DNA of 64,000 bases, from positions 310,001-374,000 of the forward strand of contig NZ_WUBR01000002.1 of assembly GCF_009807005.1 (NCBI RefSeq), in the 5' to 3' direction. Both the position numbers and the translations under genes were made by a program. Source of the stretch: Aurantiacibacter rhizosphaerae (GTDB lineage: Bacteria > Pseudomonadota > Alphaproteobacteria > Sphingomonadales > Sphingomonadaceae). The notes below the pieces were generated by a model, which saw only the letters and a program-made list of their open reading frames with translations, did no database searches and had not been told where the DNA came from. Positions 16,949 to 51,209 of this stretch are shown here, piece by piece; within the stretch, counting starts at the first letter, position 1; each line of letters opens with the position of its first letter.

Positions 16949-16951
16949 AGG

Positions 16952-19275: not shown

Positions 19276-19431
19276 TTGGGCACCTTATCGGCCACTCGCC
19301 GCATTTTCGAGGCGAACCGCTACAAAACTGTGGCTTTGTCGACAAAATTTTTGGCCTTTGTGGTTACAAGGCGCTAAAGACGCGCCTCATTTTCGAACAC
19401 CAGATTGCCGACGTGCGGAATCCCTCCGTGA

Positions 19432-33177: not shown

Positions 33178-33236
33178 TTATCCCCATAATACAATACTGA
33201 GGGACACCAGGCGTGTACCAAGGAAGGAAACCAACA

Positions 33237-33782: not shown

Positions 33783-33788
33783 GAGACT

Positions 33789-34247
33789 GTGCAGGTCAGA
33801 CACGACAGCGGCATCGAACCACTGCAACCCAGCGACGCCGCGCACGCAGCGAATTTTCCGCAGGACGGATTGGCGCACCCCGTCGATCCGCCTGCGGAAA
33901 CGCGCTCTCTTGCAGATGATCTAGGGGATCTTTTCGAGGACGCCCGAACCTATTTCGATGCCGAAATGTCTTATCAGAAGTCCCGCGCGGGCTTCGTTGC
34001 CAATCGGCTGAAAAAGACAATCGCGTTCGGTGCGGTCGCCGCCTATCTGGCGGTTCTCGCCACGATCGGTCTCACCGTGGGCCTGATCATCGCACTCACC
34101 CCGCTCATCACCGCGTGGGGCGCCACTGCATTGGTGGTACTGGTGATACTTCTGGTGGCCTATCTGCTGGTCCGCAAGGCTGCAAGCGCATGGGCAGACA
34201 TCAGGGCCGCTATGGCAAGTGACGAGGAGCCTGGCGACCATGACTGA
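33789..34247 (+). CDS. Phage-holin-superfamily (YqjE-like) membrane protein
   Basis: The 152-residue protein has two adjacent membrane helices (IAFGAVAAYLAVLATIGLTV and ATALVVLVILLVAYLLV) between an acidic N-terminus and a short charged tail, the layout of the YqjE/putative holin superfamily (DUF1469). The start is GTG 33789. Despite the family name nothing else here is phage-like. In E. coli yqjE follows yqjD, and the same order is seen here. It overlaps the next gene by eight bases. Confidence 0.75.
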   Translation: MQVRHDSGIEPLQPSDAAHAANFPQDGLAHPVDPPAETRSLADDLGDLFEDARTYFDAEMSYQKSRAGFVANRLKKTIAFGAVAAYLAVLATIGLTVGLIIALTPLITAWGATALVVLVILLVAYLLVRKAASAWADIRAAMASDEEPGDHD

Positions 34248-34605
34248 TCTGCAAACCCAGATGCATGAAGACCGCATGTTGCGAGACGCGGCAAAGCGTA
34301 TGGTTAAGTCCGACGTTGCCTATGTAAAAGGCGATATGTCATGCAAGGGCCTGGGTGGCCGCTTCGTCGACAGGATCAAGGACGGTGCATCGGAACTTTC
34401 CGATAACACGCACGAATATGCCGATACGCACCGCGCACAAGTGGGAACCGGCATCGCAGTCGCCGTGGCCGCCTTCTTTGGCTGGAAATACCGCGAGCAA
34501 CTGGCGGACGCCGTCTACGATCTTTTTCACGAGAAGACCCCGGTGGAAAAGGTGAGCGAGAAGGCGGAACAACTGGCGCGTGATGCCCGTTCCTATTTTG
34601 ATTGA
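34240..34605 (+). CDS. Small single-pass membrane protein of the stress operon
   Basis: The 121-residue product has a polar, charged N-terminus, one predicted membrane span (GTGIAVAVAAFFGW) and a C-terminal amphipathic helix (EKVSEKAEQLARDARSYF). I recognise no specific family; general layout is like DUF883 proteins. I use the ATG at 34240, which overlaps the preceding gene by 8 bases. An upstream in-frame ATG at 34219 is possible. Confidence 0.7.
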   Translation: MTDLQTQMHEDRMLRDAAKRMVKSDVAYVKGDMSCKGLGGRFVDRIKDGASELSDNTHEYADTHRAQVGTGIAVAVAAFFGWKYREQLADAVYDLFHEKTPVEKVSEKAEQLARDARSYFD

Positions 34606-34630
34606 AACATAATTTTCCCGGAGAATCCCG

Positions 34631-35122
34631 ATGAACGACCCGAAACGCGCCGAAATCAAGGCCCGCATCGCTGCCGCACAGGCACGCGAAGATGCAAAGG
34701 CACAGCAATCCACCACGCAGCGCATGGCTGACAAGGCCTCCGACGCCGGTGATGCGTTCACCAGCTTTGTGAAGGAACACCCCCTCGCCGCCGCAGCCGG
34801 CGGCGTTGCATTGGGCATACTGGTTGCCGGCATGTTCAAGGGCCCGCGCCGCGCAGCCGCCACCGGCGGTGCCAAGGCAGTTGGCCTGGCCGCTATCGGT
34901 GCCGAAATCGCCTCCGCATTCGCCAGCGAACTGCTGGACGATGCAAAGGATATCGGCCGCGCCGGTGCACGCCGTGCAGGCGATGTGGGCGATGCCATCG
35001 GCGATCGCGCCCGTTCCGTGCGCCGCGATGCGAGCTACAATGCCGATCGCGCCGGTGATGCAGCACGCATTTCCGCACGCGAAACCGGCAAGCGTATCGC
35101 CCGCGCATTCGGCCAGCGTTGA
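34631..35122 (+). CDS. Ala-rich helical membrane protein of the stress operon
   Basis: The 163-residue protein has a charged N-terminal helix, one or two hydrophobic segments (HPLAAAAGGVALGILVAGMF and a weaker Ala-rich one) and a long Arg/Asp/Ala-rich C-terminal helix (residues 105-163) with repeated GDA-like spacing. There is no recognised function. A GGAGAA Shine-Dalgarno precedes the ATG. It is the last gene before a strong terminator. Confidence 0.75.
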   Translation: MNDPKRAEIKARIAAAQAREDAKAQQSTTQRMADKASDAGDAFTSFVKEHPLAAAAGGVALGILVAGMFKGPRRAAATGGAKAVGLAAIGAEIASAFASELLDDAKDIGRAGARRAGDVGDAIGDRARSVRRDASYNADRAGDAARISARETGKRIARAFGQR

Positions 35123-35155
35123 TCACAACGCCGCATCTAATTTTTACAGTTCGAG

Positions 35156-35206
35156 TCCCCTTGCGCTCCGTGTCCTTTGGATTAGAGCGCGAGGGGATTT
35201 TTGTTT
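35156..35206 (+). terminator. Rho-independent terminator of the stress operon
   Basis: TCCCCTTGCGCTC (35156-35168) pairs with GAGCGCGAGGGGA (35185-35197), 13 bp with one wobble, followed by a T-rich run. It ends the four-gene operon. Confidence 0.85.
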
Positions 35207-35231
35207 TCAGCCGTAACTGAAGGGCCATCGC

Positions 35232-35471
35232 ATGTCAGAAGAGCACGACCACCAGCTTCTCCATCTCGTAATGGGTGGCCGCGTCACAGATCCACGCGGA
35301 GCGGAATTCCAGGATCTGAAGGATATTCACGTCGTCGGCTTCTTCGCCGATTTCGAAAGCGCGGAAGAGGCATGGCGCGGCTGGGCACAGCGCACTGTGG
35401 ACGATGCGGAAATGAAATACGTGATCGTCCACCTGCACAAGCTGCTGGAGCCGGACCTTCCCGGCAAATAA
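35232..35471 (+). CDS. DUF4170 domain protein
   Basis: The 79-residue protein matches the small alphaproteobacterial DUF4170 pattern: HLVMGGRVTDPRGAEFQDLKDIHVVG, a middle helix with EEAWRGWAQRTVDDAEM, and YVIVHLHKLLEPD. Function is unknown. It is the last host gene before the mobile element; its own terminator became the element's insertion site. Confidence 0.85.
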   Translation: MSEEHDHQLLHLVMGGRVTDPRGAEFQDLKDIHVVGFFADFESAEEAWRGWAQRTVDDAEMKYVIVHLHKLLEPDLPGK

Positions 35472-35481
35472 CCGCAGATGC

Positions 35482-35504
35482 AAAAAAGCCCCGCTTCGGC
35501 GGGG
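35482..35504 (+). terminator. DUF4170 terminator, left copy of the duplicated target site
   Basis: An A-run leads into CCCCGC-TTCG-GCGGGG (35489-35504), a UUCG-loop hairpin. The 16-bp hairpin core recurs in the same orientation at 47277-47292, just beyond the other end of the mobile element. It is therefore read here as the left target site duplication. The T-run expected after the hairpin is missing here and is found after the right copy. Confidence 0.85.
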
Positions 35505-35550
35505 GGATAAGGTGATTGTTCGGCCTGGTCCATCATTTGACCACACTCGG
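35505..35550 (+). repeat. Left terminal inverted repeat of the element
   Basis: Begins GGATAAGGTGAT and contains TTGACCACAC at positions 33-42. Aligned without gaps to the reverse complement of 47231-47276 it agrees at 33 of 46 positions, including the first 12 bases and the ten-base internal block. Confidence 0.85.
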
Positions 35551-35654
35551 TGATTTCACGTTTTCATTCGCCATAACCACAAGGCGAGCCGACTGGATGC
35601 TTTTGGCAGATTTGCCATGAACTCGGAACGTCCGAAAAGGGTGGGTAGCTGCCG

Positions 35655-35996
35655 TCAAGCTTCACCCCAATACGACTTAAAATCGGGGTGATCGCGAAAC
35701 AATTCTTCGAAGCTCGGCTCCTGAATACCGAGAATATGGACCTCTCGCTCATCGAGCCCAGGCCAATCCTGTATAGAGATTGCTTGGCTTATCAGAGCCA
35801 CCCCGTCCGCCAATTCCATCCGAAGGTTTTCACTGCGGTCCTCGATGTAATCGCCATCAACGACATTCGCGTGAAGATTCGGGCTGTATGTTGGAAAAGG
35901 TATGAATTTCGCCATGGCAACACCCATCGGCGGGTCTAGCGCGAATATGTCTGCTTCACCGATTGGCGAAGTCGCATCGTAAATAGTCACCTTCAT
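35655..35996 (-). CDS. Small hypothetical protein (element cargo)
   Basis: The 113-residue soluble protein runs from MKVTIYDATSPIGEADIF to a C-terminus with ILGIQEPSFEELFRDHPDF. It reads like a compact globular protein with no signal or membrane segment. I remember similar proteins from other sphingomonads but no function. The frame is open back to 36110, but that part lies in a repeated intergenic unit, so I start at the ATG at 35996. No clear Shine-Dalgarno. Confidence 0.65.
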   Translation of the reverse strand: MKVTIYDATSPIGEADIFALDPPMGVAMAKFIPFPTYSPNLHANVVDGDYIEDRSENLRMELADGVALISQAISIQDWPGLDEREVHILGIQEPSFEELFRDHPDFKSYWGEA

Positions 35997-36036
35997 TGTG
36001 GCTATGTGCACGAATTCACCAGTGTCCGCTATCGCG

Positions 36037-36146
36037 TCGTTAGCGGCTGGTCCGGTTTTCAGCCCGAACAGAGCGGAGCTGCCGGTCCGCTTGTGGAGTG
36101 ACCACCGCATGGCGTGAGCGTCTGCAATTGGGGTGGAAAGCGGAAA
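36037..36146 (+). repeat. Intergenic repeat unit A
   Basis: Starts TCGTTAGCGGCTGG and ends with TTGGGGTGGAAAGCGGA. It shares its beginning, the GAGCTGCC(G/A)GTCCGCT middle and its end with units B and C. It sits between two leftward small genes. Confidence 0.65.
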
Positions 36147-36434
36147 TCAATCTTTCGGTATAAGCGAGATGCCCAGTAGGCCGAGAATGAGGAAGACGCC
36201 GCCAATCGATAGGAAGAACCGAACGAGCTCCCAGACCTCTTCTTCTGTCAGATTGCGACCTTCATTTGTATAATGGATCGGCTCGCCTCCGAGGAAGTTC
36301 ATGGCGGCAACAAGAGCGACGAAACTGGCCACTAACAAGCCAAGGACGAGCCATCGCCAAGCGATCCAGCGAAGCAGTGCGGCGCTTGGCTTCGGTGGCT
36401 TCTCGAATAACCTGAAATCGGAAATGATGCGCAA
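36147..36434 (-). CDS. Small two-helix membrane protein (element cargo)
   Basis: The 95-residue product has two hydrophobic helices (WLVLGLLVASFVALVAAMNF and FFLSIGGVFLILGLLGISLI) separated by an acidic loop, with a basic N-terminus. Family unknown. It is one of four small genes in the left arm of the element, each bordered by the same repeat. Confidence 0.6.
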   Translation of the reverse strand: MRIISDFRLFEKPPKPSAALLRWIAWRWLVLGLLVASFVALVAAMNFLGGEPIHYTNEGRNLTEEEVWELVRFFLSIGGVFLILGLLGISLIPKD

Positions 36435-36490
36435 CCTGATACCTTCCTCTCAACTCCAGGATACCGATAGTTGGCATGTCCGCAATCAGG

Positions 36491-36604
36491 TCGTTAGCTG
36501 TCAGGCGGCTTTCGGCTCCGAACGTGGCAAAGCTGCCAGTCCGCTCCTAGGCGTGTCGTCCCCGTCATCGAACGGCTGTTTGTGGGGTGGGAAGTAGACT
36601 GTCC
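36491..36604 (+). repeat. Intergenic repeat unit B
   Basis: Starts TCGTTAGCTGTCAGG, contains GGCAAAGCTGCCAGTCCGCT and ends near TGGGGTGGGAAG. Clearly homologous to unit C, with which it shares the longest identical stretches. Confidence 0.7.
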
Positions 36605-36632
36605 GCTAGCCGCAGATTTCAGCACTAGCTGC

Positions 36633-37037
36633 CTAACGATTTCGCGGGTCAGCCAAGGCGATTGCCTCACCAGTTAGACACCCGTCCAACGCCTCCACTT
36701 CTCGTTGGCTGAAAGGCTCTCCGCGCCTTGAATACGCCCGCATCATGCGGGACGATCCATTATCGTGAACGTCAACCAGATAGTGTCGAACTGGATTGTC
36801 GAACCGGACAGCCTGATCCGACGGCGCTTTTCGATGCCGTAAAGTTAATCGCCCGCCCCAGTTTTGGCCGAGGCACATTCCGACCCAGTCGAGTGATTTA
36901 GCAGTCTTGCCTTGGAACGCGAGTCGGTCCGGAGATGGCTCATCTGTTTTGAATGGTAGGACAAAAAGGGCCACGAACAGCATAAGTCCAACTACGACTA
37001 GCCAAGGCATAGGTTGATTAAGCGAAACGCGTCGCAT
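36633..37037 (-). CDS. Small single-pass membrane or secreted protein (element cargo)
   Basis: From the ATG at 37037 (GGAAGG immediately upstream) the 134-residue product has one N-terminal hydrophobic helix (MPWLVVVGLMLFVALFVLPF) and a soluble remainder with two cysteines. The helix could be an uncleaved anchor. I recognise no family. The frame extends to 37145 but overlaps repeat unit C there. Confidence 0.6.
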   Translation of the reverse strand: MRRVSLNQPMPWLVVVGLMLFVALFVLPFKTDEPSPDRLAFQGKTAKSLDWVGMCLGQNWGGRLTLRHRKAPSDQAVRFDNPVRHYLVDVHDNGSSRMMRAYSRRGEPFSQREVEALDGCLTGEAIALADPRNR

Positions 37038-37105
37038 CCTTCCACTTATGCGATTTGGTTCGCTTTTGCGACCAGTAACATCAACTCGCTCGGTCCGATA
37101 TCGGG

Positions 37106-37217
37106 TCGTTAGCGGAAAGCCCGCTTTCGGCTCAAAGCGTGGCAAAGCTGCCAGTCCGCTGTTTGGCGGAAAACCCGCGCTATCGAATGTCTGCTATTGG
37201 GGTGGGAAGCGGACGTT
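37106..37217 (+). repeat. Intergenic repeat unit C
   Basis: Starts TCGTTAGCGGAAAGCCCG, contains GGCAAAGCTGCCAGTCCGCT and ends TTGGGGTGGGAAGCGGACGT. It has the same orientation as A and B although the flanking genes differ in direction. Confidence 0.7.
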
Positions 37218-37251
37218 GCATTCAGGTCGGAAAGACATCACACCGCAAGCC

Positions 37252-37545
37252 ATGTCCCTCTACAATAAATCATGGCTGTTCATGGCTTGGGTCCTCGTTG
37301 TCTTCTTCACGTTCCCAGTCTGGATGCCAGCACTTCATCGAACTTTGGGCGATCTTGGCATGCTGCTGGGACTAGCTTTCTGGCTCGGCCATGGAGTGGT
37401 GGCGCTGCTCGTATTCCGGTGTCCCGATTGCGGCCTCTCCCCATTCCAAAGCAACAAGGGCTTTTTCGCGTGGTCCACACCGTGGCCGAGGAAGACATGC
37501 GGTCACTGTGGTCGTAGCCATCGTGATGGATCTAATGACGGCTAA
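37252..37545 (+). CDS. Small membrane protein with zinc-ribbon-like cysteines (element cargo)
   Basis: The 97-residue protein has two membrane helices (FMAWVLVVFFTFPVWM and LLGLAFWLGHGVVALLVF) followed by CPDC and CGHC pairs about 30 residues apart, which could bind one metal. It looks like a small sphingomonad family of unknown function. The start at ATG 37252 leaves the upstream repeat unit C outside the gene. Confidence 0.65.
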   Translation: MSLYNKSWLFMAWVLVVFFTFPVWMPALHRTLGDLGMLLGLAFWLGHGVVALLVFRCPDCGLSPFQSNKGFFAWSTPWPRKTCGHCGRSHRDGSNDG

Positions 37546-37549
37546 GGGG

Positions 37550-37580
37550 TCGTTAGCCGACAGACTGCTTTTGGCCCAGA
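37550..37580 (+). repeat. Truncated intergenic repeat unit D
   Basis: TCGTTAGCCGACAGACTGC followed by TTTTGGCCC matches the first 30 or so bases of units A-C and then stops at the end of the cas1 gene. It may mark the junction between the cassette-like arm and the casposon core. Confidence 0.5.
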
Positions 37581-37585
37581 TTTGC

Positions 37586-38656
37586 CTATATCAGACCTGC
37601 CAGGTTTCGCGCCAATTGCGGCGATAGTCTGCAAACCCCATCTTTCCGCAATATAAAGTCCGCACCAGAGAACGTCTGTTTCCGGGCGAAAGCAAGAACG
37701 GCAGCATCGACCTTCGGCCTTTCCGGTTCAATAAGATCATATGCGAAAGCTGGAATTTCGCGGCGGTAATGATGCATTATTCCTCCAAAAGGATCGTAGC
37801 CATCACTCACCGCTTGAACCTGCAATTGCGCTAATCGCACGGTATAAGCGTAATTGAGCATGGCGTTGATTGGATGCGACGCTTTCCAATTTCGAGCTTT
37901 GCGACCGGTGAGAATTGAGCTGCGCGCCTGGTATTTCCGCCATGTGTCGGGAATTGGATAGCGGCTCTCTGCCTTCCACCTCAATTCAACTGCTTTCCAA
38001 GCCGCAAAATAGCGTGCTGCACATTCAGCTTCGACATTGCGAAGCTCATTCATTTCACCGAATTGCCGCTTTGGGAGATTGACCAACGTCTCATTGGCTT
38101 TGGCAATTGCCTTTTCCCGATATGAACTATCTGGGACATGCTTTCGCAGAGTTGTAAGGCTGTTACGGACTTTGTCGCAAATCAGCGTTCGGGCGAATTC
38201 CAAGCGCAATTGCTCATCGGATTGGGTCTTGTATTGCCATTGCAGATTTTCGGGATTGCCGATGAAGCCTGCGCCAGATGCATAGACTACCGGATCACCA
38301 CTCCATTGAACTCTGGCGAGTGCAACGCCTTGCTCGCCAAGCCAACCTAGCACATCGAATGAAATTGAGCCGCTTCCATCCAATAGCAGGATCAATCTCG
38401 GCAATTGCAAATCGCCTTTGAAATAGCGGAATTGTTCTGCCTTTTGCGGGTAATGGCTAAAGCCTTGCCTGATCAGCAATGATCCTTGTTCAATTCGCAA
38501 GGAAGAACCGTGTCCGGTTAGAATTAGAGGCTGGGAAGTGCGCTCTCGCCGTCGCCGTTTTCGTTTCGACTTCGCAATGTTGCGAACCCAGAATTCGGAT
38601 CTTTCGGCCCATTCGGAATGGTTTTCGATTGCGCGGAATTGCGAAGTTTCGAGCAT
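37586..38656 (-). CDS. Solo Cas1-like integrase (casposase)
   Basis: Cas1 joins DNA ends to target DNA; outside CRISPR systems it is the transposase (casposase) of casposons. The 356-residue protein has a very basic N-terminal patch (KSKRKRRRRER), a beta-strand N-domain (LILTGHGSSLRIEQGSLLI) and a helical C-domain with the catalytic triad in the right places: Glu209 (RNVEAECAARYF), His295 (GGIMHHYRREIP) and Asp307 with Glu310 (AYDLIEPERP). HPINAMLNYAYTV is also a standard Cas1 segment. No cas2, other cas gene or CRISPR array is visible. It is divergent from the HNH/PolB gene group. Confidence 0.9.
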   Translation of the reverse strand: MLETSQFRAIENHSEWAERSEFWVRNIAKSKRKRRRRERTSQPLILTGHGSSLRIEQGSLLIRQGFSHYPQKAEQFRYFKGDLQLPRLILLLDGSGSISFDVLGWLGEQGVALARVQWSGDPVVYASGAGFIGNPENLQWQYKTQSDEQLRLEFARTLICDKVRNSLTTLRKHVPDSSYREKAIAKANETLVNLPKRQFGEMNELRNVEAECAARYFAAWKAVELRWKAESRYPIPDTWRKYQARSSILTGRKARNWKASHPINAMLNYAYTVRLAQLQVQAVSDGYDPFGGIMHHYRREIPAFAYDLIEPERPKVDAAVLAFARKQTFSGADFILRKDGVCRLSPQLARNLAGLI

Positions 38657-38666
38657 TTACGGAAAC

Positions 38667-38683
38667 TAGCAGAATTGCTGCTA
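38667..38683. promoter_or_regulatory. Inverted repeat between cas1 and the divergent gene group
   Basis: TAGCAG-AATTG-CTGCTA lies 10 bases upstream of the cas1 start and 24 bases before the divergent gene. Its symmetry and position suit an operator shared by the two transcription units. This is suggestive only. Confidence 0.35.
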
Positions 38684-38706
38684 ATTGTCGTACAGATTAA
38701 CGGTTA

Positions 38707-39381
38707 ATGGCGGCTATTTTGGCATCGAATAGAGCAAGAGAGGCTTGGGAAAAAGGCACCGGGCTTGGCAACGCGTGGCTGCGCTTTGCTCCAGAGAATT
38801 TGGCGTCCGAATATGAGCGCGCTCCTGGCTTTTTTGAGAGCCTAGATCTCAATTCAAAGCCAGATAGCGGTTGGGAAATTCTGAAATCACTTTCGGATGG
38901 GCTATCTAAATCTCAATATCGGACAGAGCTCGAAAAGGAGATCAAGGAGCATCTCTTGGACGAGCTCTTCAACGACCAGCTCATCGCGACTGGATACCGC
39001 GAGCTTCCCTCTCCGGGTCAAAGCCCGGTTGTTATCAATCCAGCGAGATTTGAAACCGACGATCCTGATTGGCGTGAAGGAACTCTAGAGGCGCACGGAT
39101 TCCGCTACGGACGAATTAGGATTACCGATCCAGCAGTGATGATAAACGGACTAAATTCAAAACCGAAGGGCGGCTCGAATTCAGCAATCGACAATGCAAT
39201 CGCCCAATTGCTCAAAACCAATCCGGAATTTGCCGATTTACCTCGTAAAACGTCCTGTGATTTGGTTCGAAATTATCTCGGCGCTGCATATAAGCCAGGC
39301 AATGGCTTGAGTGATCAAAACATTTCAAAAGCAATTGTGCGCTTATGCAAACGAAAGCGAATTAATCGGAATTCCAATTAA
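38707..39381 (+). CDS. Unknown casposon protein
   Basis: The 224-residue protein is not recognisable. It is soluble, with an acidic middle containing many helices and a strongly basic C-terminus (IVRLCKRKRINRN) that follows a segment resembling a small helical DNA-binding domain (residues about 165-218). It is the first gene rightward of the cas1 divergent promoter, so a role in transposition or its control is plausible but inferred. Confidence 0.7.
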   Translation: MAAILASNRAREAWEKGTGLGNAWLRFAPENLASEYERAPGFFESLDLNSKPDSGWEILKSLSDGLSKSQYRTELEKEIKEHLLDELFNDQLIATGYRELPSPGQSPVVINPARFETDDPDWREGTLEAHGFRYGRIRITDPAVMINGLNSKPKGGSNSAIDNAIAQLLKTNPEFADLPRKTSCDLVRNYLGAAYKPGNGLSDQNISKAIVRLCKRKRINRNSN

Positions 39382-39487
39382 TTACCTCGGTACGTGAGCA
39401 TAAGAGGATTCGCTCGAATCACCGTCTCTAGAGATTCTTTGACCGGTCAGCAGCAATCCAGCTGCGGGCAAGTCAAAGGAAATCCAC

Positions 39488-40063
39488 GTGGCCCGCCAAC
39501 GCGACTACAAAGCTGAGTATCAGCGCCGGATCGCCAATGCTGCCAAACGCGGTCTAAGCAAGTCTCAGGCACGAGGTCACGCCCGGCCCGGTGAAAAGCC
39601 TATTCGTGGATCGAACGTTGCTCGTGGCGACACGAAGCTCGAAGCGGCTCTCACAGCCCTCAGACAGTCTGGAACGCAGGTTGCAGCGGCTAAAGAGGCT
39701 GGAGTGTCCGTCGAGCGCTTCCGGCGCTTTCTTCGCGAAAACCAGCTTGCCGAGAGGCAGGGCCGCACTTGGCTAATCGATGATCGCGCCCCTCGTGAAA
39801 TGCTTGTCCTGTCAAACGGCCAGGCGATGCAAATGCGGCTTGATGGATACGAACAAGCCTCGCTCAACGGGCGATATTTGTCAGCCTTCAAGAGTTTCAT
39901 AAGCACCAACGACAGTGAGTTTCTGTCTGACTTTGTCGGGCTGTCCGTTCGCGACGCCAAAGGCAAACTCCACCCCTTCGAAACAGACGAGAACGCTCTC
40001 TATCGCCTTGCCGCATCGGGCAGCGAGATTTTTGAAGACATTTACCGGCTCATCACAATCTGA
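39488..40063 (+). CDS. Probable DNA-binding casposon protein with HTH
   Basis: The 191-residue protein has a basic N-terminus (RDYKAEYQRRIANAAKRGLS, then KSQARGHARPGEKP) and a helix-turn-helix-like stretch (TQVAAAKEAGVSVERFRRFL, residues about 62-82). The N-terminal motif also occurs, as I remember it, in proteins encoded by phages and other mobile elements. The start is GTG 39488 preceded by AAAGGA. The upstream gap holds a TGACCGGTCA palindrome at 39440-39449. It could be the element's regulator or an end-binding protein. Confidence 0.7.
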   Translation: MARQRDYKAEYQRRIANAAKRGLSKSQARGHARPGEKPIRGSNVARGDTKLEAALTALRQSGTQVAAAKEAGVSVERFRRFLRENQLAERQGRTWLIDDRAPREMLVLSNGQAMQMRLDGYEQASLNGRYLSAFKSFISTNDSEFLSDFVGLSVRDAKGKLHPFETDENALYRLAASGSEIFEDIYRLITI

Positions 40064-40080
40064 AGAAAGGAAATTGAGCA

Positions 40081-40443
40081 ATGAAGCGCAACGATAAGGA
40101 GCGCCGCAAGCAGCAGCGGCTCGTAAAGCTTGGTAGCAATAATCCCATTTGCGGAATTTGCGGGGAAACGGATTGGCGGTGCTTGGACGCACATCACGTT
40201 GCGGATCATGGGCGCGATGATGTTACCGTCGCAATCTGCGCAAGCTGCCACCGGAAAGTCACCGATGATCAAAAGGATCATCCGGCCTTCGACGCAGGCG
40301 CTGATCCTACCTTGGACCGCATTGGCCATTTTCTAATTGGCCTTGCCGATTTGCTTTCAATCATTGTCGAAAAGCTTTTGGAATTTGCTCATATCCTCAT
40401 TGAACTGGCAAAGCCGAGCGCAATTGCCGGGGACGCGCAATGA
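40081..40443 (+). CDS. HNH nuclease-like zinc protein
   Basis: The 120-residue protein contains an HNH-type treble clef: CGICG (CxxC), AHH (DAHHVADHG) and the second pair in CASCHRKV (CxxCH), residues about 23-60, followed by a hydrophobic helical tail. HNH nucleases are standard casposon components. It sits 17 bases after the preceding gene, and its stop overlaps the PolB start (ATGA). The long helical C-terminus is unusual for a pure nuclease. Confidence 0.8.
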   Translation: MKRNDKERRKQQRLVKLGSNNPICGICGETDWRCLDAHHVADHGRDDVTVAICASCHRKVTDDQKDHPAFDAGADPTLDRIGHFLIGLADLLSIIVEKLLEFAHILIELAKPSAIAGDAQ

Positions 40444-43400
40444 GCTCGCCGCCCATCACAGACCGCTTGCCCATTTCCATCCGCGCTTTTGCCGTGCCCG
40501 ATGCCATTACGACTGGAAAAGCGAGAAAACGAACGCCCCGCTCAATTGCTTTGGCTGCGTCGAATTGGACTCTAATTTTCGACTGCGAGACATTTGCAGA
40601 TGAGACCCAGTCATTGCGGTTTGGCACTTACCAAACTCGCAATGAGGGCGCATTGATGGAAAGCGGCATCTTCTATTCGCCGGAAAATCTGAGTGATGAC
40701 GAGTTTGCGGTCTTGCGAAATTACGCTTCATCGCACGGCCTTGAATTGCTGACACATGGCGAGTTTGTCGAACACGTGTTTTTCCCCATCGGCTATGATT
40801 ATCGCGGCACGATTGTAGGCTTCAATCTCCCATTCGACATTGCCCGCATTGCTCTCAGTGCGGACTCAGCTCGTGGCAAAATGAAGGGTGGTTTTACTTT
40901 TGGCCTGACGGAAAACAAAAAGCGTCCACGCATCCAAATCAAACATCTGTCTGCCAGAGCAGCGTTCATACAATTCGCAGCTCCGGGGAAAAACCGGTCG
41001 AACCACAGCGTGCTCAAGCGCGGCAAAACCGAACCAATCCAGCGCGGTCACTTTGTCGATTGCAAGACGCTATCAAGCGCATTGTTGGCCAAATCATTTT
41101 CTCTTGCGAGCTTGTGCGATACTTTGGGTGTGCAAAGTGCAAAGTTGAAATTCGAAGATTTCAACGCCCCTATCACACCTGAGTTTGTCGAATACGCGGT
41201 GCGTGACACACAAGCCACGTGGGAATGCTACTGCGCCCTGATCGATAAGTTCGACAAGCTAGGATTAGACGGCACAAGGCCGGAAAAAATCTATAGCGAG
41301 GCGAGCCTGGGCAAAGCCTGCCTGAAAGCCATGGGCGTCAAACCATGGCGGGAATGCCAGCCTGATTTCGATCCAGAGACAATCGGTAAGATTATGTCGA
41401 CCTACTATGGCGGACGTGCTGAAATCGGCATCCGGCGCGAACAACGCCAAGTCATGCTTTGCGATTTCCTGTCAATGTATCCGACAGTCGGCACACTGAT
41501 GAACCTTTGGCGTTATGTGATCGCGACAGGCATCAGGACTAACGACGCCACGAAAGATGCGCAGTCGACCTTGGATGCAGTGACATTGGACAACCTTGGC
41601 TCAACACGCTTTTGGCGAAAGCTATCGATGCTGGTTCGCATCAAGCCCCATGCCGACATAGTGCCAGTCCGGGCGCATTACGCCGATGCAGTACAAGCTA
41701 CCATTGGCCTTAATTACTTCACCAACAAAAGTCCGCAATGGTTCACGCTTGCCGATTGCATTGCATCCAAATTGCTTACTGGAAAGGCGCCCGAGATTTT
41801 CGAGGCCATTGCGTTTGAACCGATGCGAAAACAGCGAGGATTGCGGGAATTTGAGATCAATGGCGAAGCTGACTTTGCAATCGACCCTGCCAATGATGAT
41901 TTCTACAAGCGGCTAATCGAACTCAGGCAAGCCACCAAGATTAAGCGCCAAAGTGCGAAGGGCGCAATAAGAGAAGCCTTAGATACGCAGCAGAATGCGA
42001 TTAAGATCATGGCCAGTGCGACGACCTACGGCATCTTTGTCGAGATGAATGTCGAGGATGTTATCACGGGCGCAATGGCCGAGCTTTTTGCAGGCCATGA
42101 CGACAGCTTCACCGTGAAGCCTTCGAAGACCGAAAAGCCGGGAAGTTTCTTTCATCCATTGCTCGCCACGCTCATCACAGGCGCTGCGCGATTGATGCTG
42201 GCGATAACCGAGAAACTGGCGAGCGACCGTGGGCTTGATTGGTCATTCTGCGATACAGACAGTTTCGCCCTGGCTAAGCCTGAATTGATGGATGGGTCTG
42301 AGTTTACCGTTCATGTGCAAAGCGTGATCGATTGGTTTGGTCAACTCAATCCATACGACTTTGAAGGCTCGATCTTGAAAGGCGAGGATGTGAATTTCTC
42401 GCAGTCAGGAAATGGAAAGCTGGAGCCGCTCTATTGCTTTGCCATTTCAGCTAAACGCTATGCGCTGTATAATCTGGACAATGGTGGCAGGCCGATAATC
42501 CGCAAAGCGTCGGCGCATGGCTTAGGACATTTGCGAGCGCCATATAACGCGAACAATCCAGCCCCTTCAATCCCAAAGCCGCAAATCGATTTGGCAAAAG
42601 CGGGTTTGGCACTTTGGCAGCATGATATTTGGCTCAAGATCATTGAGGCCAGTTACACCGACAAACCGCACATGGTTGATTTGAGCTATCCCCCGGCACT
42701 CCAATTGCCAGCTATCAGCAGATACACCGCGACTTCGCCTGATTTGCTGCGTTGGTTCAAGCAATACAATGAAGGCAAACCCTACGCTGATCAGGTAAAA
42801 CCCTTTGGCTTTCTGACCGGGCTAATGACCCACAGTATTGATTGCGAGCCTCGCGTAGTTGGCAGGCCGTCGATGCGTATAGGTTCGAGAAGCAATCTGA
42901 AGCCAATTTCTCCCTTTGAAACCGATCCGGCCAAGGCTGCGGAAAAAGCGTTTGATCGCAATACTGGATTGCCGGTGCCAATTGAAAAACTCAAAACATA
43001 CGCTCAGGCCATCGCGCAGTATCATCTACAGCCAGAAAACAAGTTTCTGAATGGCGAACATAGCGATACCGGGAAGACGCAACGGCGGCACGTCCTGGCC
43101 ACTTGCATGGCCCACATCGGCAAAGAGGCCAATGAACTGGATAAGCAGAGCACCTTAGGTTTTGATCCAGACGCTCAACCTTCATATGGCTACAGTCCAG
43201 CTGACATTGCAGAGCTGCAATCGGAACTGGCTAGACTATGCGAAGTTTTCAGCACTTATCAGATTGCTCGGCATGGCCGGATGAAATCGAAGCGGCTTTC
43301 CAATCTCCTCGGCGCGGACAGCAAATCGAACCTAGCCTCTATCGGCGCAGAGAAAATGCGAGCCCTTGTGAGGCACTTCGGTCACCGTGAACTTGCAGAG

Positions 43401-43532
43401 CGAGTTGAACTTGATGCGCTGGATCAGCTCGTTTCCGAAGGCGGATTGCGGATGACGGCGAGGGAATTAATGGTAGATCCTTCGAACTTGCGTAGAAGCA
43501 TCAGGAGACAGGAGCGAAGGCTGCGTTCTTAA
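40440..43532 (+). CDS. Family B DNA polymerase of the casposon
   Basis: A 1030-residue replicative-type PolB. The proofreading exonuclease is intact: Exo I FDCET (Asp48, Glu50), Exo II GFNLPFD (Asn129, Asp133), Exo III YAVRD (Tyr252, Asp256). The polymerase motifs are intact: A CDFLSMYPT (Asp342), B KIMASATTYG (Lys522-Gly531), C FCDTDSFA (Asp605, Asp607). The roughly 350-residue C-terminal region is unrecognised. In casposons PolB is thought to copy the element. It is translationally coupled to the HNH gene. Codon use is visibly AT-richer than the host genes. Confidence 0.92.
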   Translation: MSSPPITDRLPISIRAFAVPDAITTGKARKRTPRSIALAASNWTLIFDCETFADETQSLRFGTYQTRNEGALMESGIFYSPENLSDDEFAVLRNYASSHGLELLTHGEFVEHVFFPIGYDYRGTIVGFNLPFDIARIALSADSARGKMKGGFTFGLTENKKRPRIQIKHLSARAAFIQFAAPGKNRSNHSVLKRGKTEPIQRGHFVDCKTLSSALLAKSFSLASLCDTLGVQSAKLKFEDFNAPITPEFVEYAVRDTQATWECYCALIDKFDKLGLDGTRPEKIYSEASLGKACLKAMGVKPWRECQPDFDPETIGKIMSTYYGGRAEIGIRREQRQVMLCDFLSMYPTVGTLMNLWRYVIATGIRTNDATKDAQSTLDAVTLDNLGSTRFWRKLSMLVRIKPHADIVPVRAHYADAVQATIGLNYFTNKSPQWFTLADCIASKLLTGKAPEIFEAIAFEPMRKQRGLREFEINGEADFAIDPANDDFYKRLIELRQATKIKRQSAKGAIREALDTQQNAIKIMASATTYGIFVEMNVEDVITGAMAELFAGHDDSFTVKPSKTEKPGSFFHPLLATLITGAARLMLAITEKLASDRGLDWSFCDTDSFALAKPELMDGSEFTVHVQSVIDWFGQLNPYDFEGSILKGEDVNFSQSGNGKLEPLYCFAISAKRYALYNLDNGGRPIIRKASAHGLGHLRAPYNANNPAPSIPKPQIDLAKAGLALWQHDIWLKIIEASYTDKPHMVDLSYPPALQLPAISRYTATSPDLLRWFKQYNEGKPYADQVKPFGFLTGLMTHSIDCEPRVVGRPSMRIGSRSNLKPISPFETDPAKAAEKAFDRNTGLPVPIEKLKTYAQAIAQYHLQPENKFLNGEHSDTGKTQRRHVLATCMAHIGKEANELDKQSTLGFDPDAQPSYGYSPADIAELQSELARLCEVFSTYQIARHGRMKSKRLSNLLGADSKSNLASIGAEKMRALVRHFGHRELAERVELDALDQLVSEGGLRMTARELMVDPSNLRRSIRRQERRLRS

Positions 43533-43639
43533 AAAGGCTCTCAAAATCGCACATGATTTCAATTGAGCGAAATTGGTGAAAAATGACCCATTCAGCTTCA
43601 ATATCATGTCTTTAAGAAATCCCCGCTATTGACCCAGAA

Positions 43640-43727
43640 GCTACGTTAGGCTCTGCTATGAGAGCTCAACTGTAGCATGATGAACTCAGTTCTTAATAAT
43701 GACCTCATTAAAAGGTGGCCGGTCTTT
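43640..43727 (+). ncRNA. Possible structured leader or ncRNA upstream of the RT pair
   Basis: The 273-base gap between polB and the first RT gene contains a nested hairpin (GCTAC 43640-43644 with GTAGC 43672-43676, inside it GCTCT with AGAGC), then GAAC-TCA-GTTC (43682-43692) and AAAG-N9-CTTT (43711-43727). Two-RT defence systems are known to carry an ncRNA. Whether it is this segment or the one downstream cannot be decided by eye; boundaries are approximate. Confidence 0.35.
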
Positions 43728-43805
43728 AATAACGGACTAGCGAACAATACATTTGCTGGTAGCGATGGGCTTTTCAGACAGTAAAGGGCATTGATAATTT
43801 GAATT

Positions 43806-45041
43806 ATGTTTGATTCCACTTTGCACGCGAAGACACTCGCTAGGCAGATTCGCGCAACCGACTTTCACAGCCATCTTTGGTCTTTCTCGACGGCTGACCG
43901 AGAACCAATTGTTGATGCCGCCGTTCAACTCGTTAACAGCGGCTTCGCGCAAGTGGCATTACGACGTGAATTTCTAGGTGGTAAGTCCATCTATCAGCAG
44001 ACATCGCTTGCTGAGACGTTAATAATTCGACAAATTTCCGAGGGCATTCGGCGTGTGACTAATGTCAAACAATCCGATCGTCAGTCGATCGTTAAATCCA
44101 TCATCGCCCTTTCGCGTGAAGGAATACCATTTCACATTCTAAAATTCGACGTAAAATCTTTTTACGAAACTATAAACACGAACGCAATAATATCGACCTT
44201 GAGAGAGGACGCTGTGTTTTCTCGACAGTCAGTTAACGTGCTTAGCTCATTCTTCGACGCATTGCAGAATCAAGGAATTGATGGGTTGCCACGCGGGTTG
44301 GGGGTAAGCGCCACGTTGTCTGAATTTGCTATGCGCAATTATGATCGCCAGATGTCAAGCTTGTCAGGTGTTAGATTTTACAACCGCTTTGTAGACGACA
44401 TTATTGTCGTCGCATTGGATGGAGCGGATCTAGAAACGATCAGCTTGAAGGCACGGTCCTGGCTTCCCGATGGCCTTGATCTAAACCGTTCGAAATCAGT
44501 TGAGTTCAATTTCAAGGCTCACGAGCGTGGCGCAACGCACGCGACCGAGCACCAGCTGTCTTTCCTAGGATACAGGCTGGATATCGGTGTCGCAGTAAGA
44601 GCCGAGAACGCGATTGAACGGAAGGTGGTTGTCGATATTGCCGACAGGAAAGTCGCCCGCCTAAAGAGACGTATCGCGAAAGCGATAATACAATTTAACG
44701 CCGATGGAAACTTCGCGGATCTTCACGGACGGGTGAAGTTGCTCACAAGTAACTACGGTTTTGCTGACCCTTCTTCAGGTCAACAGCGGTACTCTGGCTT
44801 AAGATACAACTACAGCTTGATCAATTCAATCCTGGCAACATCGCTGGACGAGTTAGACAGATTTCTAGTCAACGCAATAACGTCTCGACATCCGCAAAAC
44901 AGACTGCGCCCAACTTTAACGACCGCTCAGCGGCGCAGTCTGCTCGGCTTTGGATTTCGAAGCGGGTTTGTCTCAAATCGCTTTTTTTCCTTTACGTACT
45001 CTGAGGTTCGCCACCTGACGAAATGCTGGTCACATGCGTAA
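43806..45041 (+). CDS. Reverse transcriptase, Drt3a-like
   Basis: The 411-residue protein has the RT palm motifs: A KFDVKSFYETI (Asp115), B GLPRGLGVSATLSEF (160-174), C NRFVDDIIVV with FVDD at 195-198, and a later LSFLGYRLDI typical of the primer-grip region. There are no maturase, endonuclease or integrase domains. It overlaps a second RT gene by eight bases. A tandem of a roughly 400-residue and a roughly 650-residue RT matches the published type 3 defence-associated RT system (UG3 plus UG8). Family placement is from size, motifs and pairing, not from a search. Confidence 0.82.
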   Translation: MFDSTLHAKTLARQIRATDFHSHLWSFSTADREPIVDAAVQLVNSGFAQVALRREFLGGKSIYQQTSLAETLIIRQISEGIRRVTNVKQSDRQSIVKSIIALSREGIPFHILKFDVKSFYETINTNAIISTLREDAVFSRQSVNVLSSFFDALQNQGIDGLPRGLGVSATLSEFAMRNYDRQMSSLSGVRFYNRFVDDIIVVALDGADLETISLKARSWLPDGLDLNRSKSVEFNFKAHERGATHATEHQLSFLGYRLDIGVAVRAENAIERKVVVDIADRKVARLKRRIAKAIIQFNADGNFADLHGRVKLLTSNYGFADPSSGQQRYSGLRYNYSLINSILATSLDELDRFLVNAITSRHPQNRLRPTLTTAQRRSLLGFGFRSGFVSNRFFSFTYSEVRHLTKCWSHA

Positions 45042-47010
45042 GAAGCTCGTTGCAAAAGGTAATGTTCGGCGCGGTGATTTCATTCGCGTAGTTTTAACTG
45101 AAACACTCCCAGAGGAAGTACCACTAATATTCTCCAACGACGGATTTTATAGAAATCAAGCTACGATCACCAACATGACGAGCCAAGCGTTAGAATTCTT
45201 TGAGGTGCTTCTAAGCTCAGAAAGGCGTTACACTAAACCATATCGATTTAGTGTTCTCCGAGATAATTTTACAGCCCGCCGCCTGAGCCTTGTCCATCCG
45301 TCGGCCCAGTTAGCGGTTGCCAAATTCTATAAGGATTATGACAGTTTAATATGTCATTTTTCTTCAAAATCCCCGGCATCTCTGCGTGCGCCTGTCAAAG
45401 TCGGGGCATCGTTTTTCGTCCGTGGGACCCAGAGTGAGGTTAACCGCTTCAAAGCCGCAGGTATTGATACAGTCACGCTAGAGACAACCACTTCCAACCC
45501 AGCCTCATATTTTGCATATAATATGATCAACAGAGCGCACGAATTCTTCAATTCAAACGATTACATTCACCTTGAGAAAAAATTCGAGCTCTTTCGCACT
45601 CTAGACGTTAGCAAATGTTTCAATAGTATCTACACCCATTCTCTCTTTTGGGCAGTCGCCGACGTGGAAACCGCGAAGGATAATACCCAAGCTGTCGGGT
45701 TTGCCAATGATTTTGATCGCTTGATGCAGTCAATGAATTACAACGAGACGAATGGAATTTGCATCGGGCCAGAAGTATCAAGAGTGTTCGCGGAAATAAT
45801 ATTTTCTGAGATAGATAAGCGTATTATAGACTGTCTTTCTGATAAAGGATTAGTTTTTAGGTCTGATTATGAGTTCCGTAGATATGTTGACGATTTCTAT
45901 ATATTCGCGAAGAATTACGTCATCTTGGATAAAGTTTCTTCAATCGTGCAGACTACCCTTGGAGATTTTAATCTACATCTGAACTCGGGGAAAGCAGTGA
46001 CAGTCGCCCGACCATTTGCGACATCGAAGTCGATAATAATCAAGGAAGTTAACGACGCCCTAAACGCGTTTCTGAAAAAAGTAATTTCCTATAGAGTTCA
46101 GGGTACTGATCGGCACGCAGTTTCACTACGTATTTGGCGCTCTGATGCAATAATTCGGTCTTTCATCAGCCAAGTGAAAGCGACGTGCACGATGCACAAT
46201 ACAGGTTACGAGACTGTATCTGACTATATTGTCTCTGCACTCAGCAAGCGGGTCGTGGAGCTTGCAGATGGCTATTCATCGGAAGGGGCCGAGCGCACCG
46301 AGGCCGCCCGAGAATGTATGATCGACGTCAATTTGGTTCTAATCGAACTCTGCTATTTCTTTTATACCGTGAACCCTACAGTCCGAGCTTCGCTACACGT
46401 TGCAAGAGCTGTGATCACCGCAACGCGGATTTTTAAAAACCATTTTCAGGATCGTTTGCCACATTTGTCGGAAAGCGTAATGCGCTGGACGCTAGACGTA
46501 GCTAAATCGGTTGCTCGTGGCGGCCGGCATCGTGAGTTAACTGCGGTACCCTTGGAGGTTTTGAACATACTAATTCCCATGAGTGAGGTCGTAGCAAACG
46601 AACCCCTCGTAGAGGACCTTATTGAGGAATCTTGCTGCGACGTAAGTAATTTCGAATACTTCGAAATTGTCACCTTCCTTTTTTTGACTGGCGGGCGACC
46701 AAGGCATCGCGATCTCATAGGCCGGTTGTTCACTCACGCTCGCAAGATCATCGACTCCGGTCCTGGTCTCTCTATCGATTCTCAATCGATCCATCTTTGT
46801 TCTGACCTATTGACCTGTCCCTTTTTGCCTCTGCCGAAGCGAGCCTCGTGGTTTAACCGGCTCAGAGGTAAAGTCGGCCTGCAGAAACTTTCTGTCGCTG
46901 ATTCACAAGCGGCCGTTCGATCAATGGAAAACTTCCCTTGGTTTATCAAATGGGATGGCGTCGACTTGCTCAAATTATTGCGGAAAAAAGAGTTGAGTGC
47001 CATTTATTAA
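45034..47010 (+). CDS. Reverse transcriptase, Drt3b-like
   Basis: The 658-residue protein also carries RT motifs: A TLDVSKCFNSIYTHSL (Asp191), B NGICIGPEVSRVFAEI (240-255) and C RRYVDDFYIF with YVDD at 284-287. It has about 180 residues before the palm and a long helical C-terminal domain (after about 380) with no known fold to my eye, as in the Abi-type RTs. It overlaps the first RT gene, so expression is coupled. AT-rich codon use differs sharply from the host. Probable antiphage cargo. Confidence 0.82.
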   Translation: MRKKLVAKGNVRRGDFIRVVLTETLPEEVPLIFSNDGFYRNQATITNMTSQALEFFEVLLSSERRYTKPYRFSVLRDNFTARRLSLVHPSAQLAVAKFYKDYDSLICHFSSKSPASLRAPVKVGASFFVRGTQSEVNRFKAAGIDTVTLETTTSNPASYFAYNMINRAHEFFNSNDYIHLEKKFELFRTLDVSKCFNSIYTHSLFWAVADVETAKDNTQAVGFANDFDRLMQSMNYNETNGICIGPEVSRVFAEIIFSEIDKRIIDCLSDKGLVFRSDYEFRRYVDDFYIFAKNYVILDKVSSIVQTTLGDFNLHLNSGKAVTVARPFATSKSIIIKEVNDALNAFLKKVISYRVQGTDRHAVSLRIWRSDAIIRSFISQVKATCTMHNTGYETVSDYIVSALSKRVVELADGYSSEGAERTEAARECMIDVNLVLIELCYFFYTVNPTVRASLHVARAVITATRIFKNHFQDRLPHLSESVMRWTLDVAKSVARGGRHRELTAVPLEVLNILIPMSEVVANEPLVEDLIEESCCDVSNFEYFEIVTFLFLTGGRPRHRDLIGRLFTHARKIIDSGPGLSIDSQSIHLCSDLLTCPFLPLPKRASWFNRLRGKVGLQKLSVADSQAAVRSMENFPWFIKWDGVDLLKLLRKKELSAIY

Positions 47011-47026
47011 GTGATTAGATGGCTTT

Positions 47027-47154
47027 GGGCATCGTTTGCGCACTTGACGGCCCTGCCGTTTATTCTCCCGCTCGAAGGCTACCCCTTAGCACGTGGTAGC
47101 TGGGCAGCGACGATGAGCCATTGCGCACACACCAAATGTGCGCCGACGATGCCC
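47027..47154 (+). ncRNA. Putative structured ncRNA downstream of the RT pair
   Basis: The 309 bases between the second RT gene and greA hold no credible gene but strong structure. The 17-mer at 47027-47043 is complementary to 47138-47154 with one wobble and one mismatch, enclosing 94 bases. Inside are GCTACC/GGTAGC (47078-47083 with 47095-47100). The hairpin GCGCACA-N7-TGTGCGC (47123-47143) competes with the long stem. A short ACACAC run sits at 47127-47132. Downstream of this come a small hairpin (47191-47207) and the right inverted repeat. An RT-associated ncRNA is the natural reading but is unproven. Confidence 0.5.
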
Positions 47155-47230
47155 ACCCCACGAACGTTACCCATTCTAGATTGGTTCCGTGCGCTGTTAG
47201 CTAGCGCCATACTGATACCCTGAGAGATAG

Positions 47231-47276
47231 CCAGGTGTGGTCAATCCATCGCTCCCGCAGACCTATCACCTTATCC
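47231..47276 (-). repeat. Right terminal inverted repeat of the element
   Basis: Read inward from 47276 on the minus strand it begins GGATAAGGTGAT and carries TTGACCACAC at the same offset as the left end. The ungapped match over 46 positions is 33. Only a few bases separate it from the RT module, so the RTs are inside the element. Confidence 0.85.
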
Positions 47277-47297
47277 CCCCGCTTCGGCGGGGCTTTT
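47277..47297 (-). terminator. greA terminator, right copy of the duplicated target site
   Basis: CCCCGCTTCGGCGGGG (47277-47292) followed by CTTTT. It is the same 16 bases, same orientation, as 35489-35504. Joined to the left flank's A-run, it reconstitutes a symmetrical terminator with an A-tract on one side and a T-tract on the other. Confidence 0.85.
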
Positions 47298-47319
47298 CGT
47301 ATCGGCTGTGGATGCGCGA

Positions 47320-47787
47320 TTATTTGAATTCGATCTTGTCGATCAGGTAGAACTTCTCACCAGAAGGCACGGTCACCTCCACCTCGTCACCCACGCTCTT
47401 GCCGATCAGCGCGCGCGCAAGCGGGCTTTCGTAGGATACGCGGCCGACTTTCGCGTCGCTCTCCGCCTGGCCAACGATCTGGTAGGTCAGCGGCTTGTCA
47501 TCCTCGTCCAACACGGTGACGGTTGCGCCGAACACCACCTTGTCTCCCGATAGCGTGGCGGGATCGATGATCTGGGCGCGGCTGGTCTTGTCCTCCAGAT
47601 CGGAAATCTGCGCTTCCACCTGGCCCTGCCGTTCCTTGGCAGCGTGGTATTCGGCATTCTCCGACAGATCGCCATGCGCACGCGCTTCCTCGATCGCGTC
47701 CACGATCTTCGGGCGTTCCTGGCGCAATGCCTTGAGATCTGCGGTCAGCTTTTCATAGCCCTCCGCGAGCATCGGCACTTTCTGCAT
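47320..47787 (-). CDS. greA: Transcription elongation factor GreA
   Basis: GreA rescues backtracked RNA polymerase by stimulating transcript cleavage. The 155-residue protein has the N-terminal coiled coil with the tip acidic residues ([20 protein letters not shown]) and the C-terminal FKBP-like domain ([21 protein letters not shown]). An AGGGA Shine-Dalgarno precedes the ATG. It lies downstream of carB on the same strand and is the first host gene right of the mobile element. Confidence 0.97.
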
Positions 47788-47886
47788 TGTAATCCCTGCT
47801 TTCTATGACTCTCGTCAATACGGATCTGACCCGCCCTTGTGGGCGGCTCCAGGAGCCGGATTGGAGGGAGAGCTGGTGTCTAGTTC

Positions 47887-51209
<3,323 letters not shown>

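Follow-up and report, generated by a model that had tools for sequence, protein, structure and literature searches.

Casposons, elements mobilised by a Cas1 integrase (casposase), are a known kind of transposon, and the bacterial casposon at positions 35505–47276 of the window analysed here appears family-3-like. The window is the stretch of 64,000 nucleotides at positions 310,001 to 374,000 (forward strand) of contig NZ_WUBR01000002.1 of Aurantiacibacter rhizosphaerae, a bacterium with kinship to Sphingomonas, and coordinates refer to it unless another record is named. As described in PMC4046053, family 3 (including Henriciella marina HenMar-C1 and elements of Nitrosomonas sp. AL212 and Streptomyces albulus) is found in bacterial hosts, has a distinct Cas1 clade and in most members, three of four, encodes an HNH and a conserved helix-turn-helix (HTH) protein. 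The window element shares with it the family B DNA polymerase PolB, terminal inverted repeats (TIRs), a target-site duplication (TSD) and the bacterial host. It also has HNH-like and HTH-like genes, recognised by a motif and weak fold matches, and a Cas1 without extra domains, as in HenMar-C1 and StrAlb-C1 (PMC4046053). Unlike the window element, family 3 is described in that account with neither a defence-associated reverse transcriptase (DRT) type 3 cargo nor hairpin or terminator targets; the casposon sites it gives are tRNA 3′ ends, EF-2 and intergenic DNA, and its passages on them mention neither hairpin targets nor DRT. The four founding members lie outside our compared set; other Henriciella and Nitrosomonas elements are inside it (loci L073, L076, L081, L089, L047 and L101).

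The casposons of Methanosarcina mazei and Aciduliprofundum boonei have a Cas1 integrase and a duplication of 14–15 bp in common with the window element (PMC6977970, PMC6614799). For the enzymes studied, the duplication is 14 bp in M. mazei (PMC6977970) and 14–15 bp in A. boonei. They differ in being archaeal and, as these sources describe them, in using tRNA 3′ ends that need upstream sequence as natural targets; in vitro, symmetrising the natural TSD made it no worse a target (PMC6977970). The DRT3 system of E. coli is described with a noncoding RNA (ncRNA) downstream of Drt3b that exposes a 5′-ACACAC-3′ template loop, and with a Drt3b having active-site residues E22, R71 and R241, a YVDD site and a priming Tyr666 (PMC13174585). 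Drt3a, Drt3b, a downstream ACACAC-bearing ncRNA and partners of YVDD, E22, R71, R241 and the terminal tyrosine are all present in the window, in a system that is distant in sequence and, unlike that of E. coli, lies inside a transposon beside greA. The word casposon is absent from PMC13174585.

We consider it very probable that the element is a bacterial casposon inserted into the bidirectional terminator between DUF4170 and greA, with a complete-looking DRT3 anti-phage system as cargo. An independent search for TIRs and a TSD around the Cas1–PolB core refound the ends exactly. The complete casposon that a preliminary description had proposed at 35505–47276 is thereby borne out, with ends, target duplication and core genes all intact. 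The same search returned the 16-bp direct repeat CCCCGCTTCGGCGGGG as TSD, the length given before; a 14-bp duplication is an equally possible reading (CCCGCTTCGGCGGG, element 35504–47277), because of the G at the start of the element, the G-richness of its ends and the palindromic target. When 2 kb × 2 kb were shuffled 60 times, the best pair of 46-mers had 29 identical positions versus 33 in the real TIRs, whose conserved blocks are the tip GGGATAAGGTGAT (13/13) and, from 34 bp inside, TTGACCACAC (10/10).

The state before insertion is preserved in relatives. A search for greA in 40 genomes of the genus gave 30 loci including the own one, and the DNA between DUF4170 and greA was read in the 29 relatives. 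A single uninterrupted hairpin with A-run and T-run flanks was counted by eye between the two genes in 18 of the 29, for example in L118 (AAAAAAGCCCCGCTTTAGCGGGGCTTTTCGTATC), whose GreA is 98% identical; the empty site that the preliminary description had proposed to look for thus exists. The window holds this hairpin twice, one per casposon end. In the remaining 11 relatives the two genes are separated by another short spacer (five: L122, L126, L128, L140, L145) or a longer gap (four: L129, L132, L134, L138), or DUF4170 is absent from the examined stretch (two: L130, L143). No casposase relative was found at E ≤ 1e-30 in the 39 other genomes of the genus (7 of the 40 are less than 90% complete), and together with the empty sites this makes the insertion young on the scale of the genus. 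The features are as follows.

35232–35471, plus strand: host DUF4170 gene, left flank (name from the preliminary description)
35489–35504: left TSD copy, hairpin of the DUF4170/greA bidirectional terminator; with its T-run, outward-facing on the minus strand
35505–35550, plus strand: left TIR (TIR and TSD search, shuffle comparison)
35655–37545: left arm, small open reading frames (ORFs) of 151, 95, 170 and 165 aa with repeated 46-nt and 122-nt units
37586–38656, minus strand: casposase (solo Cas1), 356 aa, E209/H295/D307 present
38707–39381, plus strand: casposon-associated ORF, 224 aa, homologues in some casposons
39488–40063, plus strand: conserved casposon protein, 191 aa, predicted HTH (weak, partial fold matches)
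40081–40443, plus strand: HNH-like zinc protein, 120 aa (motif)
40440–43532, plus strand: casposon family B DNA polymerase, 1030 aa (homology, motif residues)
43806–45041, plus strand: Drt3a, RNA-templated reverse transcriptase (RT) of DRT3 (PADLOC 8.3e-122)
45034–47010, plus strand: Drt3b, protein-templated RT of DRT3 (PADLOC 1.6e-198)
47026–47155, plus strand: predicted DRT3 ncRNA (limits set by the outer stem), template ACACAC at 47127–47132
47231–47276, minus strand: right TIR (TIR and TSD search, shuffle comparison)
47277–47292: right TSD copy; with its T-run, outward-facing on the plus strand
47320–47787, minus strand: host greA, right flank (name from the preliminary description)

The right third of the element, with Drt3a, Drt3b and the ncRNA-like region, had been overlooked in the original gene inventory. 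Drt3a and Drt3b are adjacent and both exceed the NCBIfam equivalog cut-offs (NF041747, 373 bits versus 200; NF041748, 634 bits versus 350); their PDB matches are 9z6y_A (3.3e-51) and 9z6y_H (9.9e-110). Entries 9z6y and 26cz were found by sequence, and 26cz was taken as the E. coli Drt3b from its length and numbering. In the alignment with 26cz the published E22, R71 and R241 correspond to E28, R82 and R250 of the window protein, identical residues in each case; YVDD stands at 284–287, and the last residue, Y658, is aligned with the priming tyrosine. The motif ACACAC lies 116 nt past the Drt3b stop and is unpaired in the predicted single-sequence fold of 47011–47215 (pairing probability ≤0.02). 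It occurs within 400 nt downstream of Drt3b in all 17 collected loci, window included, and the block around it (GATGAGCC..TGTGCACACACCAAATGTG, majority) is conserved in the window, two plasmid-borne systems and L157, and less so in L077. The entire system fits within the element: between the outer stem of the predicted ncRNA and the right TIR, 75 bp remain. The element thus carries a complete-looking DRT3 antiviral system, and by analogy with E. coli it would act in phage defence: upon infection Drt3a would copy the ACACAC template into poly(dTdG), Drt3b would use its C-terminal tyrosine as primer for poly(dCdA), and the DNA so made would stop the infected cell.

The core genes agree with those of other casposons. 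As first described, Cas1 is a solo protein with intact Glu209, His295 and Asp307: it matches Pfam Cas_Cas1 at 6.9e-34, no other Cas_Cas1 match exists in the whole genome, and the three residues are invariant in it and four relatives. The best PDB match of its profile was 6opm, an entry code named in the M. mazei casposase paper (PMC6977970). In a tree of 66 casposases and 26 other sequences (quick method, long CRISPR branches; CRISPR, clustered regularly interspaced short palindromic repeats), the window Cas1 fell inside starred sets of 5, 13 and 37 sequences, each of casposases only, and not within a CRISPR subtype. Over the whole tree, separating casposases from the others takes 2 label changes, so that one or more rows other than that of the window must be misplaced. 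A strong Cas1 relative was present in 5/396 genomes of the order, the own genome included. The polymerase, matched by no Pfam family above the cut-off and by no PDB entry, is homologous to casposon PolBs over nearly its full length and aligns with the archaeal ones at 32–36%; the residues of what we take to be its exonuclease and polymerase motifs are invariant in five sequences, which upholds the original assignment to family B. PolB relatives were found neither among 60 viral-contig candidates nor on plasmids, and thus gave no sign of a phage or plasmid form. The protein first called HNH has C24, C27, H38, H39 and H57 invariant in 16 members; Pfam HNH matches one of the 16 (0.0053), and not the window protein, here termed HNH-like. 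With the 191-aa protein the fold search gave no match at E ≤ 0.001 and at most a partial winged-helix similarity. The order of the core, with Cas1 divergent from the 191-aa HTH-like protein, HNH-like protein and PolB, is common to most loci holding all four.

By analogy with the M. mazei and A. boonei enzymes, the window Cas1 would catalyse transposition of the element. It would join the two 3′-OH ends of the element to the edges of a palindromic hairpin core of about 14 bp, one per strand, and repair would then duplicate the target hairpin. As the target is palindromic, Cas1 would meet the same half-site on both strands. DUF4170 and greA are convergent, and the element sits in the bidirectional terminator between them. 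A terminator scan listed sites with six GC pairs at 47277–47292 on the plus strand and at 35504–35489 on the minus strand, both outward; no other listed site has six, and no inward-pointing site was listed at either end. Each hairpin copy keeps a T-run on its outward side only, so that transcripts of the element should stop outside, while DUF4170 and greA lose their T-run. The casposon would thus have taken over both halves of the bidirectional terminator, and read-through from greA may cover the DRT3 ncRNA in antisense (47026–47320).

The right end of the element lies 43 bp from the greA 3′ end, and GreA is described as a host factor required for DRT3 defence in E. coli (PMC13174585). Beyond the window, the idea that casposons choose sites near greA found no support: the other casposon and DRT3 loci checked showed a single weak GreA match (27%), in an archaeon, so the greA neighbourhood is probably due to chance. 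In the left arm, a 46-nt unit occurs four times among the small ORFs (36022–37580), two copies of it inside the 122-nt repeats. Host repetitive extragenic palindromic (REP) elements or integron cassettes were considered as an origin of these repeats and are unsupported: a 141-nt unit matched only within the element in a genome search at E ≤ 1e-5, and a 16-mer of the unit with up to 2 mismatches occurred 6 times in the genome versus 4 for its reversed control. The 151-aa and 170-aa ORFs of the arm had no PADLOC match. Left of DUF4170 and outside the element (33213–35122) stand small genes that presumably encode ElaB/DUF883-like and holin-like membrane proteins.

To place the element, a scan with PolB alignments and one genome per species yielded 142 relatives, and 80 loci were kept, 63 bacterial and 17 archaeal by their record titles. 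Bacterial casposons had been called few; 63/80 speaks otherwise, in a scan in which the alphaproteobacterial query favours bacterial loci. TIRs were found in 50 of the 75 loci that hold both Cas1 and PolB, so that inverted repeats accompany these genes in relatives as well. The 25 loci for which ends were not found, including L047 and L077 and many on short contigs, were excluded from the tallies of hairpins and cargo, and the duplicate loci L034, L035 and L036 were removed before counting, which left 47 distinct elements. Direct repeats were accepted from 11 bp; one element had a longest exact repeat of 13 bp and all others one of at least 14 bp. Marinicauda salina carries two different casposons (L059, L060) in one genome; both have tips of the GGGGTATAG type, and their targets are palindromes or nearly so.

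The flanks of each element were joined to rebuild the empty sites of 37 bacterial and 10 archaeal elements. Each site was scored by the number of complementary pairs symmetric about the centre of the duplication, out of 7 pairs and without the central 4 or 5 bases. Bacterial targets had a mean of 5.49 pairs and reached at least 6 of 7 in 22/37 cases, whereas control positions 20–70 bp away had a mean of 1.83 and reached 6 pairs in 0.38% of 3700. Archaeal targets averaged 2.20 (at least 6 pairs in 1/10; control mean 1.91). With 1 bp of slippage allowed, 29/37 bacterial targets qualified versus 1.3% of 27273 flank positions. Flank sites with CCC-N-GGG at the same spacing were palindromic inside in 16.5% of 109 cases versus 31/37 targets, so the bases at the edges alone are insufficient to account for the symmetry. 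The end search may be biased towards palindromes, whose duplication makes the inverted repeat longer. That the archaeal targets returned by this script are for the most part non-palindromic speaks against such a bias as the main cause. Outward T-runs of at least 4 flanked 6/37 targets on both sides and 10/37 on at least one, and inward T-runs none; the T-run-bearing targets look like terminators, and many of the remaining ones we take to be REP-type stems. Targets lay between convergent genes in 15 of the 34 cases with callable neighbours. Together these data suggest that bacterial casposons favour hairpin-shaped sites, namely terminators and REP-like stems.

DRT3 pairs adjoin the casposon core in two other loci. 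In L047, a Nitrosomonas metagenome-assembled genome (MAG), DRT3 lies left of Cas1 on the same strand, with the Drt3a gene next to Cas1 and a casposon tip motif at contig position 56, left of DRT3. In L077, a Hyphomicrobiales MAG, it lies right of PolB on the opposite strand and adjoins the core, a position inside the element being unproven since no ends were found for this locus. The three systems do not group in a tree of Drt3b (for which the program warned of long branches elsewhere in the tree), and its starred branches require the casposon label to change three times, read here as separate gains of DRT3. The nearest relatives of the window Drt3b are plasmid systems of Novosphingobium (61%) and Acetobacter (58%), and no Drt3b was found in phages at E ≤ 1e-30. 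At E ≤ 1e-60, DRT3 occurred in 2/398 Pseudomonadota genomes and 8/396 genomes of the order, the own genome being counted in both. An enrichment of DRT3 in casposons (2/56 other loci versus 1/397 other Pseudomonadota genomes, p = 0.04) is not claimed, because the test was post hoc and the rate in the order is already 8/396 including the window.

For cargo in general, one or two of the largest cargo proteins of the 37 bacterial elements with ends were compared with PADLOC at E ≤ 1e-5. In most elements the protein was the longest non-core ORF (the second longest instead in L072 and L091); two were scanned in L033, L037, L044, L050 and L068 and all ten main ORFs in the window, while Cas1 and Cas2 of L061 were scanned afterwards. 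A defence family was matched in 22/37 elements, in L037 by the second protein and not the longest; the 15 elements in which no cargo protein scanned had a match were L033, L038, L048, L056, L064, L066, L072, L073, L075, L080, L085, L086, L089, L091 and L105. As a control, the longest flanking protein was matched in 2 of 20 of the same loci (Fisher p = 0.0003), these being taken from 34 available in list order with gaps and thus non-randomly. Loose matches comprised a helicase (L052), AAA-type ATPases (L037, L068, L069), a weak PDC-S50 (L057) and both control matches, and clear ones type I, IIG and III restriction, a full-length PD-Lambda-4 (L060), PtuA (L065), LmuB (L079) and the window DRT3. 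Locus L061 (DHQO01000001.1, Hyphomonadaceae bacterium UBA5336, a MAG) is a casposon at 5554–18825 that encloses a type II CRISPR-Cas locus: Cas9 at 15101–18514, Cas1 at 14212–15156, Cas2 at 13883–14317 and an array of about 18 repeats with a period of 66 at 12657–13810. Beside this locus stand its own casposase and PolB, so that two kinds of Cas1 occur in one element. These matches suggest that bacterial casposons often ferry antivirus genes.

Defence-like cargo as such is not new, since methyltransferases, nucleases and helicases are named as casposon genes in PMC6614799, and a methyltransferase and a restriction endonuclease are among the abbreviations of the casposon maps in PMC4046053. What our data suggest as new is DRT3 as cargo, a terminator hairpin as target and, in relatives, a cargo rich in defence genes; among the open-licence papers examined we found no report of hairpin targeting by casposons or of DRT3 in a casposon, which does not establish priority. 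Two further arrangements were seen among the compared loci. In Methanolobus bombayensis (L100) a CRISPR-like array of up to 69 repeats (14409–19408) lies about 330 bp outside the right end of the casposon (14081). Genes of about 530, 295 and 298 aa recur as a run of three in L065 (= L035), L033, L038 and L079; by eye, in L033 and L035, the run comprises a serine-recombinase-like and two ParB-like genes, a second recombinase in a Cas1 transposon.

Several observations weigh against the reading of the window element as a casposon with functional DRT3 cargo. The TIRs, first described as 46-bp inverted repeats, are imperfect, with 33/46 positions identical counted from 35504. The ncRNA region 47011–47215 folds better than shuffles by a modest margin (z = −3.2), a four-sequence consensus fold of shorter stretches pairs part of ACACAC (13 pairs, 4 with double changes), and an Rfam scan of 35000–48000 gave 0 matches to an ncRNA at E ≤ 1. 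The terminator scan listed 19 sites versus 14.7 (sd 4.2) in shuffles, so a listed site alone proves little. The casposon end has no further copies in the own genome beyond the element's two ends. No near-identical copy was seen elsewhere, the closest Cas1 seen being 61% identical. Of the suggestion that the element is recent or active we retain recent, there being no sign of current movement.

The RTs could instead be part of the casposon life cycle, copying element RNA or feeding cDNA to Cas1, for RT-Cas1 fusions act in CRISPR adaptation, RTs and Cas1 stand together in the window, L047 and L077, and in L047 Drt3a adjoins Cas1 on the same strand. We hold this to be very unlikely: DRT3 is found in only two of the 56 other bacterial Cas1+PolB loci, its position and orientation differ among the three, the casposon label changes three times on the Drt3b tree, the nearest relatives are on plasmids, where no casposon PolB was found, and other casposons bear unrelated cargo. 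Still less credible, and strongly disfavoured, is the view that this is no transposon but a decayed locus of CRISPR adaptation, or a defence island into which a Cas1 has strayed. Cas1, RTs and a nuclease together can resemble an adaptation module, but exact ends with a duplication, the empty site in relatives, the casposon core genes, the position of Cas1 in its tree and the lack of a second Cas1 in the genome all argue for the casposon.

Beyond this element, we propose tentatively, and with slightly more doubt than confidence, that bacterial casposases recognise and duplicate stem-loop palindromes as symmetric targets, a choice from which the dyad symmetry of CRISPR repeats could stem, and that the elements routinely carry immune systems. 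These comprise DRT3 (in up to three lineages), restriction systems, Septu-, Lamassu- and PD-Lambda-4-like genes and one Cas9-Cas1-Cas2-array locus. Cas1-Cas2 duplicating a palindromic CRISPR repeat has the same outcome as a casposase duplicating a hairpin, and some insertion sequences target REP elements or terminators, that is palindromes, using other transposases. As to the hairpin part, a rather doubtful but substantial possibility is that hairpins are not recognised at all and that palindromic targets are insertions that survived between genes, in DNA rich in terminators and REP-like repeats. GC-rich intergenic DNA is full of such stems, 15/34 targets lie between convergent genes, survival and site choice are not separated by these data, and the end search may favour palindromes. 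The symmetry is however centred on the duplication (29/37 within 1 bp versus 1.3% of flank positions), few of the CCC-N-GGG flank sites are palindromic inside (16.5% versus 31/37 targets), and the same script found palindromic targets in only 1/10 archaeal elements.

The adaptation module of CRISPR systems is commonly traced back to casposons. In summary, a Cas1-mobilised element with a complete-looking antiviral system would show the ‘defence gene shuttle’ step in one piece of DNA. A casposase from a mesophilic bacterium with a defined, symmetric hairpin target would, moreover, make the question of palindromic CRISPR repeats testable in vitro.

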